Source of the DNA: Microcoleus sp. GA_180221_E-2-1-MAG-45_12
GTDB lineage: Bacteria; Cyanobacteriota; Cyanobacteriia; Cyanobacteriales; JAAUUE01
Direction: 5' to 3'
NCBI GenBank assembly: GCA_020692245.1
Contig: JAIMKT010000020.1
Coordinates: 1 to 36,382, forward strand
DNA: 36,382 nucleotides
Part shown: in pieces, positions 32,705-36,382 of the stretch
Layout of the letters: every line of letters begins with the position of its first letter
Numbering within the stretch: position 1 is the first letter of the stretch
Position numbers and translations under genes: made by a program
The notes under the pieces: model-generated
Databases searched by the model: none
Told to the model about the DNA's origin: nothing
What the model saw: only the letters and a program-made list of their open reading frames with translations

Positions 32705-33991
32705 TTAGGTTAGTTCTTGGTTTCGCCCTTGGGGAATAATCTTACTGAGAATGAAATACAAGATTACCGCCGCAATGATCCCGTTCACAGGTTTAATTCC
32801 GCCCGAAAAATAGGCGATCGCTGAACTAGCTACGTAGGCAATAATTCCTGCCCAATTAAAAGCTGGCTGGGGTGTATCCACATCCGGGAAAACTCCCTTG
32901 CGACAGAGCCAATAATCTGCCATAACAACTCCCCCAATAGGTGGAATAAAAGTACCTAGCAAAATCAAGTAGGGAACTAGCATTTCATAGATACCGCCCC
33001 AAGCCAACACCAAAGCCATAGTTGCCCCGCCCAAGACAAAAGCCGTGCGTTTATTTGTCCGAAACATGTGCGCTCCCGCTACGGAAAAGGCATAGATGGT
33101 ATTATCTTGGGTCGTCCACATATTCAGGAACAGCAAGATTAAACCCCAAAAAACTAGACCTTGGAGAGCCATCACCTCCACAATATCTTCCTTGCCATAG
33201 ACCAAAGCACAGAAAGCTCCAGAGAAAATCAGAAAGCCATTCCCAAAAAAGAACGCCGCCATGCTGCTGATAAAGGCTGACTTCCCAGAGGTGGCAAACC
33301 GACTCCAGTTAGTTGCTTGGGTTCCTCCAGAAACAAAAGTCCCCACAATGATAGTTAAAGCAGCCCCAATATCCATAGGTTTTTGAGGTACGATCGCCAT
33401 CAATCCATCCCAACCCCCTACCTGACCGGAAGCGATCGCCAAACTCCAGACCATCAAAATCACCATCGCTGGTACGGCAATCCGAGAGAGCCAATCCATC
33501 GCCCGGTAGCCAATATAGGCAGTGCTACAGAAGAAATAGGTGAAAAAGAGAATAGTTAACCAGTTCCAGCTAGGAGGAACCCCCGCCAGCTTATTTAGCA
33601 AGTTTGCAATGAGAGCCGAACCCCAAGCATACCAACCAATTTGGGTAAACCCCAGAATAAAATCTACCCACCGGGAGCCAATCCTGCCAAAGCTAAATCT
33701 TGCCATCAATACCGTACTCAAACCCGTGTTTGCAGCAATGTAGCCCAAGGAAGCCGCATACACCCCCAAAATCAAATTACCCACCACTATTAAGACAATC
33801 AAATCTGGAAAAAACTTAAAAGAAGGCCCAACTAAACCTCCTGCAAACAAAGTACCGGAATAAAGGGTAAACCCAATTAGGAGAGGAGCCAGAGAAATGA
33901 TAGATTTCCGGGCATTGGGAGGGACAGCAGTTAGGGGATAATCGGCGTTATTTGGTACAGTTTCTGCAACTAATTCCTGATTTGTTTCCAT
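32705..33991 (-). CDS. NCS1 family cytosine/purine permease (CodB-like)
   Basis: A 428-aa membrane protein with about 12 helices and NCS1 marks: PPNARKSIISLAPLLIGFTLYSGTLFAGG near the N-terminus, ARFSFGRIGSRWVDFILGFTQIGWYAWGSALIA, GTFVSGGTQATNWSRFA, and TTQDNTIYAFSVAGAHM. The length and start are close to CodB, the cytosine/proton symporter. The exact substrate (cytosine, purine or related) is unknown, and no codA deaminase is adjacent. It lies 130 bp downstream of, and in the same direction as, a histidine kinase that itself carries an NCS1-like domain. Confidence 0.9.
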   Translation of the reverse strand: METNQELVAETVPNNADYPLTAVPPNARKSIISLAPLLIGFTLYSGTLFAGGLVGPSFKFFPDLIVLIVVGNLILGVYAASLGYIAANTGLSTVLMARFSFGRIGSRWVDFILGFTQIGWYAWGSALIANLLNKLAGVPPSWNWLTILFFTYFFCSTAYIGYRAMDWLSRIAVPAMVILMVWSLAIASGQVGGWDGLMAIVPQKPMDIGAALTIIVGTFVSGGTQATNWSRFATSGKSAFISSMAAFFFGNGFLIFSGAFCALVYGKEDIVEVMALQGLVFWGLILLFLNMWTTQDNTIYAFSVAGAHMFRTNKRTAFVLGGATMALVLAWGGIYEMLVPYLILLGTFIPPIGGVVMADYWLCRKGVFPDVDTPQPAFNWAGIIAYVASSAIAYFSGGIKPVNGIIAAVILYFILSKIIPQGRNQELT

Positions 33992-34121: not shown

Positions 34122-36382
34122 TTAACTCGCCTCTAAAGTCAAGATATTCAAGCTAGTAGGCAGATCAATAATAAAAGTAGTACCTTTTTGATCACTAGAA
34201 ACACAGCTTATTTTCCCCTTGTGCTTATCAGTAATAATTTGATAACTAATGGATAGACCCATCCCTGTACCTTTACCGATCGGCTTCGTTGTAAAAAATG
34301 GATTAAATATCTTTTGCCGTACCTCTTCAGGCATTCCTAAGCCATTATCACTGATGCTAATTCTCAGATAATTTTGATTGATTAGCTCCGTCCGGATCGT
34401 AATTTGTAAAGTGGGGCTGGTATTAATCTTCTGGGCTGATTTGTAGGGAGATGAGCTTAATTTCTGGGAAGTGGCTATCTCTTGATCGGCAAGAATAGTA
34501 GAAGTGTAATAGCTAGTTGATTTAATAGTATTTTTTGTGTAGCTAGAAATTTCTTCTGAAATATCAGTGGCAAGATTATTAGAAATACTAACGGAAATAT
34601 TACCAGAAACATCATTGTGATATTGACAAGCATCTTCTAGGGCATCGATCGCATTGGCAATAATATTCATAAAGACTTGGTTCAACTGCCCGGCATAACA
34701 CTCGACTAAGGGTAAGTTTCCGTACTCTTTAATAACTTTAATTTCTGGTCGATCGAAGCTAGCCTTAAGGCGGCTCTGCAAGATCATTAAGGTGCTATCA
34801 ATACCAGTATGAATATCCACTGCCTTACAGTCTGATTCATCCATCCGAGAGAAATTTCTCAGGGATAATACGATTTTTTGGATGCGATCGGTTCCCAGTT
34901 TCATTGAAGACAACATTTTCGGAAAATCTTCCACCAGAAAATCAACTTCCCATTCCTCCAAAGCCTCAATGATTTCTGATGAGGGCTGGGGATAAGTCCT
35001 TTGATAAAGATTAATCAACTTCAGCAAAATATCCGCATAGTCCATGGCATAGCCGAGATTCCCCGCAATAAAATTCACCGGATTATTAATTTCATGGGCT
35101 ACCCCCGCTACCAACTGCCCCAAGCTGGACATTTTTTCGGTTTGCACGAGCTGCGTCTGGGCTTGTTGTAAATCTCTCAGGGCTTTGGAGAGTTCACTAG
35201 TCCGGGCTTCTACACGGATTTCTAGCTCTTGAGTAAGTTTTTGTAGGGCTGTGTCGGCTCGTTGTCGATCGACAATCTCTGCCTGTAATTGACTGTTCTG
35301 GCGATCGAGTTCTTCCTCTGCCAACTGTTTGCTTTCTTCACTCAGGACTAACCACCAACTGCCTATGCCTAACAAAACTACTAGGGGGGCGTAGAGTTGG
35401 ATGAACAATACTGGAGAAATATCACTATTATGGGATTCTTGATAATAAACCAAGCCAAAGACCACCGCCGTGATCCCTGTAGACAAGCCAAAAAATCCCC
35501 CGAAGCGTATTAGCCTCAACCCCAGTAAAGGGGAAACTTTATCTTGGAAAAGTTTGGCAGTGAGATTCCAGACCAAATTCTCGATTACTTCCCCAGTATT
35601 TTGGTGCGGTTTGCAACTATCGTGACACCGGGCATCTAGACTACAACAGAGGGAGCAGATGGAGCCATCGTACACCGGACAGTAGGCAGTATCCGGGATT
35701 TCGTAGTCCTGTTCACAAATACAGCAAGCCACCAGAGATTTGCCTTCTAGGGTCGTCACTTGGGTGTTTTCTCTAGCAATGTAGTATTTACCCTTGGTGA
35801 TCACAGCAATGATCGGTGAGAGGATGAAGGCAATACCCAGAGCCAAAAAAGGAGCGTAGGCTTGGGGATAAGCACCAAAGACACCTACAAAGGCAAGAAT
35901 CGAGATCACGGAAGCCACGATCATCGACCCAAACCCCACGGGATTAAAGTTGTACAAATAAGCCCGCTTAAACTCAATGTAACTGGGACTCAAGCCCAAG
36001 GGTTTATTAATTACCAAGTCAGCAACCAAAGCTCCAATCCAAGCGATCGCCACATTAGAATACAACCCCAACACCGTTTCCAAGGTTTCAAACACCCCCA
36101 ACTCCATCAGCAATAGAGCGATCGCTACATTAAACACCAACCACACAACTCGACCGGGATGGCTATGGGTGAGGCGAGAAAAAAAGTTTGACCAAGCGAG
36201 GGAGCCAGCGTAGGCATTGGTGACATTAATTTTAATCTGGGAGATAACGACAAATAGCGTGGCGATCGTCAGCACTACCTTCGGGTCACTGAACATATCG
36301 GCAAAACCGCCCAAGTACATATTAATCGGTTGCTTGGCATCCCCTAGGGTCAAGCCGTGGTTAATTGCCAAGGTTGCGAGAA
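34122..36382 (-). CDS. NCS1 transporter-like domain / cysteine cluster / histidine kinase fusion (5' end outside window)
   Basis: Open from the right window edge; at least 752 aa are present and the TTG at 36371 is only the first in-frame start codon, not a real N-terminus. Numbering from it, residues 1-195 are polytopic and resemble the C-terminal part of NCS1 purine/cytosine permeases ([27 protein letters not shown]-like loop replaced by [14 protein letters not shown]). Residues 216-253 hold nine cysteines (CCIC ... C ... CSLCC ... C ... C), probably zinc-binding. Two more helices (about 290-343), a coiled coil (about 345-410) and the kinase follow: H-box [14 protein letters not shown] (H426), N-box [16 protein letters not shown]-boxes DNGLGMPEE and [14 protein letters not shown]. 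No receiver domain is present. It likely senses or transports a nucleobase-like ligand. Confidence 0.9.

Follow-up and report, generated by a model that had tools for sequence, protein, structure and literature searches.

A candidate urea- and short-amide-sensing transceptor kinase in a cyanobacterial contig and its cysteine-tailed permease family

A permease–kinase fusion and its accidental neighbour

The window, a 36,382-nucleotide stretch of a Microcoleus sp. contig, ends inside a minus-strand gene whose reading frame is open at the right edge and encodes 752 aa up to that point (Table 1). On the continuing contig (C20), the complete gene occupies C20:34122-37223 and encodes 1033 aa, the window holding the last 752; extending the sequence to the right, as the original prediction had advised, gave the full N terminus. 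A 14-base run of Ns (C20:36383-36396) lies inside the gene, starting exactly at the window's edge, and further N runs (C20:39363-39727, L100) fall in a large ATPase/TPR-type gene upstream of the kinase.

The full-length protein consists of a permease (residues 1-485), a cysteine domain (500-537), a helix pair (approximately 565-632), a coiled coil (to approximately 699) and the kinase domains HisKA (E 2e-7) and HATPase_c (E 1e-22). The H-, N-, G1-, F- and G2-boxes are all intact, identifying a HisKA-type kinase, and an AlphaFold model places two helices after the cysteine domain, at residues 565-599 and 604-682. A sister genome, Coleofasciculaceae cyanobacterium SM2_1_6 (L009), encodes a complete 1029-aa protein whose permease, cysteine and linker regions match those lying within the window at 93% identity. 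The reading made from the letters alone, of a CbrA-style fusion between a transporter and an intact histidine kinase, with nine cysteines in 38 residues followed by a second helix pair, was accurate in each of these respects, the cysteine count exactly so (C500-C537 in full-length numbering). It was also right that no response regulator is in view, both in the right part of the window and in the contig upstream to C20:50000. In the window genome, 74 DNA matches to the gene all fall, except for the gene itself, in the kinase part, reflecting dozens of related histidine kinases.

Table 1. Features of the kinase gene and its neighbour, in window coordinates.
Feature	Position	Strand	Basis
codB-bearing 1,471-bp stretch, absent from L009	32651..34121	.	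blastn junctions, L009 12247/12249
CodB-like cytosine permease, neighbour outside the system	32705..33991	-	NF008241
Candidate transceptor histidine kinase, residues 282-1033	34122..36380	-	ORF and contig continuation to C20:37223
Histidine kinase, phospho-acceptor His in AHEINNP; ATPase domain ~34155-34418	34122..35126	-	HisKA, HATPase_c, boxes
Predicted signalling coiled coil joining membrane part and kinase, residues 633-699	35127..35327	-	Unbroken helix 604-682 in model
Extra transmembrane helix pair, residues 565-632, sensor versions only	35328..35531	-	AlphaFold helices; hydropathy peaks 574-592, 600-628
Cysteine domain, C500-C537	35613..35726	-	Eight cysteines invariant in homologues
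Second half of predicted NCS1-fold permease domain, residues 282-485, end of TM7 to TM12	35769..36380	-	AlphaFold, Foldseek

The gene directly downstream was correctly recognised as a CodB-like permease, scoring 484.6 bits against the cytosine permease equivalog NF008241 (cut-off 326). The further proposal, that kinase and CodB form a sense-and-import pair, fails by the refuting condition attached to it, the lack of a link between the two in other genomes. In the 93% identical sister, the kinase stop and alr are 1 bp apart, and the window carries 1,471 bp more at this position, with codB; we did not find codB next to the other cyanobacterial sensors. Across a 291-genome sample of the phylum, CodB-like genes occur in 8 genomes and the sensors in 12, mostly different ones; both are present in the window genome's entry G000, in G008 on different contigs and in G110 as a fragment only. 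The adjacency of kinase and codB is accidental and goes back to a single insertion or deletion, and the sister junction, the other sensor loci and the genome co-occurrence led us to reject a nucleobase pair with CodB. The junctions of the codB stretch coincide with the stop codons of the kinase and alr, the mark of a clean and recent insertion or deletion.

A cysteine-tailed permease family with exchangeable outputs

An AlphaFold model of the permease built from 48 sequences (pLDDT 86.4, pTM 0.83) finds its closest PDB matches by Foldseek in CodB (E 2.4e-10, target TM-score 0.76) and Mhp1 (E 1.4e-9, TM-score 0.68-0.71), followed by the SSS family (SiaT, E 3e-7). The domain is thus predicted to be of NCS1 fold, a LeuT-type architecture of the CodB/Mhp1 kind, as had been proposed for the membrane part of the fusion. 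At the level of sequence, none of the 48 aligned members, fusions and stand-alone permeases alike, matches a Pfam transporter model at E <1; PF02133 is among the models without a match, and the family falls outside the NCS1 permeases as defined by PF02133/TIGR00800. An NCBIfam scan of five proteins returned a faint cytosine permease match in one stand-alone (E 2.9e-4, 19.7 of 326 bits). PDB sequence searches with the permease or cysteine profile gave no significant match over the domain and only CxxC zinc-finger fragments, and hhalign of the family against the window's single CodB (E 0.007, probability 6%) is too weak alone. Judged by the predicted fold, the family is a distant NCS1 branch for which Pfam and NCBIfam hold no model, with weak profile-level homology to NCS1. 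The original description of the fused permease as belonging to the same family as its CodB neighbour holds for the fold, but not by PF02133, which the fused permease does not match.

Likeness to CodB (7QOA) and Mhp1 extends to the 'LG...GG' pattern of TM1, where an ungapped match of 'LGGISFLALEAIGG' to CodB 'LGLTFFSASMWTGG' places G49 on Gly29 and F53 on Phe33; in CodB, Gly29 is a Na2 ligand and Phe33 stacks on cytosine (PMC9379551). Unlike CodB and Mhp1, the family has a C-terminal cysteine domain and a different gene context, and the TM8 hydroxyl ligands of CodB, Thr278/Thr279, appear to have no counterpart under either plausible alignment (Q/K/I instead). By sequence alignment, a lysine invariant in all members of alignment A1, K331, lies in TM8 near the site of CodB's Na2 threonines. 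It could mean proton coupling; in CbrA, which is proton-driven, a lysine side chain occupies the Na2 site (PMC13022988).

The cysteine cluster is the C-terminal tail of the whole permease family, with or without a kinase. Its core spacing, C-x2-C-x11-C-x7-C-x2-CC-x5-C-x3-C, is identical in all 82 distinct homologous tails, in a search in which two of the gaps could vary somewhat in length. In 106/106 homologues, which come from cyanobacteria, Proteobacteria, Actinomycetota, Bacillota and Verrucomicrobiota and include 51 stand-alone permeases, every one of the eight core cysteines is conserved; these homologues were recognised partly by their CxLC(C/S) core, which makes that part of the invariance, and not the remainder, a matter of construction. 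In alignment A1, whose stand-alones were first found through permease similarity, all eight are likewise invariant. Because the spacing recurs in 82 tails and the cysteines in every homologue, the cluster is not a product of chance. Its zinc-finger-like appearance had been noted correctly, but its description as an insert was wrong, since stand-alone permeases carry the same tail; a kinase-specific insert is ruled out on the same ground. The AlphaFold model shows a beta-rich knuckle pair and a short helix, whose nearest solved folds are two-zinc types (ZZ, RING/U-box, PHD and FYVE), none of them significant (best E 0.25). The domain likely binds metal and is probably a two-metal cross-brace.

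What follows the tail divides the family. In sensor versions, the cysteine domain leads into the helix pair, which the stand-alones lack, then into the coiled coil and finally into an output module that varies: a histidine kinase (HK) in most cyanobacterial sensors, including that of the window, HK-REC in Proteobacteria, PAS-HK-REC at L029, GAF-SpoIIE phosphatase in a Methylococcaceae (L032:9161-12923) and PAS-GAF-PAS-GGDEF-EAL, also given as PAS-GAF-GGDEF-EAL, in the methanotroph Methyloprofundus (L035:8761-13425). That such different outputs are combined with a single input module speaks for the permease part as the sensor. The SpoIIE fusion is followed by a gene for an anti-sigma-type HATPase, possibly a partner-switching output for a nutrient transceptor.

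An unrooted maximum-likelihood tree of the permease core, built without the cysteine tail, separates the 51 stand-alones from all sensors by one branch (SH-aLRT 100%). One protein initially scored as a stand-alone (L041_33) ends at a contig end and groups with the sensors; it is included in the transporter residue counts below (n=52). Almost without exception, residues in TM8 and on the substrate-facing side of TM1 distinguish the two groups. Sensors have F53, L/C56 and E57 in TM1 and A/G339 and A343 in TM8, whereas transporters have Y53 (46/52), D56 (49/52), mostly F/Q57, S339 (51/52) and S343 (51/52); G49, the EQxDxLRF motif and K331 are among the family-invariant residues that sensors keep. 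The sensor-specific residues F53, L56, E57, A339 and A343 suggest that sensors bind ligand yet transport poorly, as reported for Ks-Amt5 (PMC5764959). The same residues mark a single old split, and descent alone could account for part of the pattern.

Gene neighbourhoods and the probable ligand

We scored each locus by tblastn for formamidase FmdA, aliphatic amidase, urtB/C, urease and response regulators, over at most 10-14 kb on each side. Sampled loci were the 80 top hits from a single pattern scan together with hand-picked plasmid hits, and the fractions that follow describe this sample and are not population frequencies. Formamidase/amidase, urtBC or urease lie near 21/23 non-cyanobacterial sensor fusions, set against our rough estimate of 1-2 in 100 for a random gene, and a LuxR-type response regulator is present at 20/23 of these loci. 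Two methylotroph sensors, those with SpoIIE and GGDEF-EAL outputs, have no urea/amide neighbours.

On annotated plasmids, sensor and response regulator are typically divergent from urtABCDE-fmdA-fmdB, in B. vietnamiensis, M. currus, P. liaowanqingii, Chelatococcus, A. oryzae, P. desertarenae and P. aromaticivorans, or from urease, with or without urt, in M. trichosporium and Mitsuaria. Thioclava has urt and a separate formamidase at its sensor locus, and Methylovirgula groups sensor, regulator, stand-alone, formamidase and amidase all together. Stand-alone members adjoin urease in A. johnsonii, formamidase in Moraxella and Tsukamurella, and formamidase/amidase in 5/7 cyanobacterial cases; two plasmid stand-alones, from Arthrobacter and Streptomyces, have no urea/amide neighbour. 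Eleven loci combine a sensor with a stand-alone member. The family does have a sense-and-import pair, in which the transporter is the stand-alone cysteine-tailed member (for example at L044, L049, L083, L092, L024 and L027), not CodB.

Because relatives elsewhere sit by genes for using urea and formamide, the sensor probably reports small nitrogen compounds of this kind and not nucleobases; the nucleobase ligand originally envisaged found no support in these neighbourhoods, which indicate urea and short amides. We consider it reasonably probable that the window protein is a transceptor kinase for urea and short amides, in which an NCS1-fold, cysteine-tailed permease has turned into a ligand-binding sensor. 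A small nitrogen compound (urea, formamide or acetamide) would bind the central permease site, and the ensuing movement would reach the kinase by way of the cysteine domain with its bound metal, then the added helix pair and the coiled coil; phosphorylation of a response regulator by the kinase would in turn induce genes for uptake and hydrolysis. With slightly less confidence, we lean towards a joint claim about the wider class: a urea/short-amide permease family absent from Pfam, with a metal-binding tail, that split once into transporters and sensors, the latter coupled to kinase, kinase-receiver, SpoIIE phosphatase or c-di-GMP enzyme outputs, four kinds in all, its siblings often side by side, and that is widespread and has gone unrecognised.

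The cyanobacterial branch has a different context. By the same test, amide/urea genes lie near 1/23 cyanobacterial sensor loci versus 21/23 elsewhere, and relevant neighbours are kept at 2/23, L024 and L027, placed separately from the rest of the cyanobacterial sensors on the tree. In both, the kinase gene is immediately followed by one for a REC-MarR response regulator, and a stand-alone member lies nearby; L027 also has a formamidase. The other 21 loci, including the window's sister, showed no amide/urea gene or REC-MarR in the compared DNA, some of their contigs ending close by; most cyanobacterial sensors, the window's among them, are orphans. At L027, a 147-aa cysteine-rich protein with no Pfam match (L027:13425-13868) lies between the sensor/regulator pair and the formamidase and has relatives at L033, L036 and L037 (cluster 11).

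The window genome encodes a urease and two PF03069 proteins that are 26-31% identical to the linked FmdA. Our searches of it found no second permease copy and no stand-alone member, nor, by similarity to the L027 REC-MarR, a clear orthologue of that regulator; two candidates, a MarR-like 169-aa frame and a receiver, gave partial, weak matches to it only and were set aside. Each of the 12 genomes with a sensor in the phylum sample has urease, as do most of their relatives, and this co-occurrence is uninformative about the ligand. For the window organism, we infer the ligand class and the partner from homology and expect the response regulator to be encoded elsewhere.

Competing readings and known transceptors

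In one rival reading, the cyanobacterial branch is a transceptor for some nutrient other than urea or amides, whether a further small nitrogen compound or not, and its ancestral gene neighbours and regulator have been lost. The scarcity of amide/urea genes at cyanobacterial loci, the lack of a stand-alone member in the window genome and the distance of its PF03069 proteins from linked FmdA all fit such a change. However, window-type permeases remain 65-78% identical to those of other cyanobacterial sensors and 45-66% to the remaining sensors and stand-alones, all sensors share the diagnostic pocket residues, and L024 and L027 retain the linkage from elsewhere on the tree; we judge this reading rather unlikely. 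A variant compatible with our preferred one is doubtful too, if a little less so: the sensor could be a still-active permease and report both binding and transport, in the manner of CbrA, which transports histidine (PMC13022988, PMC7096432). Retention of the family-invariant residues in sensors agrees with it, whereas the consistent sensor-only changes in TM1 and TM8 fit altered coupling.

In another reading, suggested by the eight invariant cysteines immediately before the kinase linker, the cysteine domain itself would be the input, through its metal content or redox state, and the permease would act as a normal transporter or as an anchor in the membrane. We find this improbable, as the domain is equally invariant in kinase-free stand-alones, where it would serve the permease itself and not signalling alone, and the genes nearby concern nutrients rather than metals or redox chemistry. 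A nucleobase system of kinase and CodB, suggested by their adjacency on one strand and shared NCS1 fold, is more improbable still, given the codB-free junction in the sister, its absence from other sensor loci and the near-separate genome distributions of the two genes.

A urea/short-amide transceptor of this kind would join a small set of transporter-derived sensors. The known transceptor kinases CbrA, CrbS and RpuS are SLC5-STAC histidine kinases (PMC13022988, PMC9100948) and share with the window family a LeuT-fold transporter fused to a histidine kinase and the transceptor logic. They differ in having SLC5 and STAC, where the window family has the NCS1 fold and a cysteine domain with an extra helix pair; it also has other output modules and a urea/amide gene context. 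No SLC5 or STAC domain was matched by Pfam in the family, and its fold is closer to CodB/Mhp1 than to SSS. The ammonium sensor kinase Ks-Amt5, which lost transport and gained a binding site (PMC5764959), and AmtE, an Amt-GGDEF-EAL protein (PMC8467165), are likewise nitrogen-nutrient transporters turned sensors, with HK or GGDEF/EAL outputs. Theirs is a trimeric Amt/Rh fold with no cysteine domain, unlike the window family, in which Pfam gave no Amt/Rh match and the fold is LeuT-type. Our search of the open-access literature found no described NCS1-fold transceptor kinase and none for urea or formamide.

The fmdA-fmdB-urtABCDE operons that combine formamidase with a urea ABC transporter form the neighbourhood of the non-cyanobacterial sensors, and their regulator is unnamed in the papers we found. 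In Ectopseudomonas guguanensis, a hybrid kinase and a LuxR regulator stand beside urtABCDE-III and fmdA, the kinase not being named (PMC13296017); we suspect that it belongs to the sensor family. In culturable bacteria, the results point to a receptor for urea or simple amides, to the response regulator that it likely uses and to its target operons. The family also offers a clean test of the change from transporter to receptor, because its true transporters and sensors are encoded next to each other and a few pocket residues tell them apart. Relatives turn up in 531 records of plasmids, from Klebsiella, Sinorhizobium and Acinetobacter among other hosts. Annotation pipelines label the stand-alone members, among these plasmid relatives and at L093:5663-7270, 'cytosine permease', 'allantoin permease' or 'hypothetical protein', and our analysis identifies the permease family behind them; the names are probably wrong, because several stand-alones adjoin urease or formamidase.
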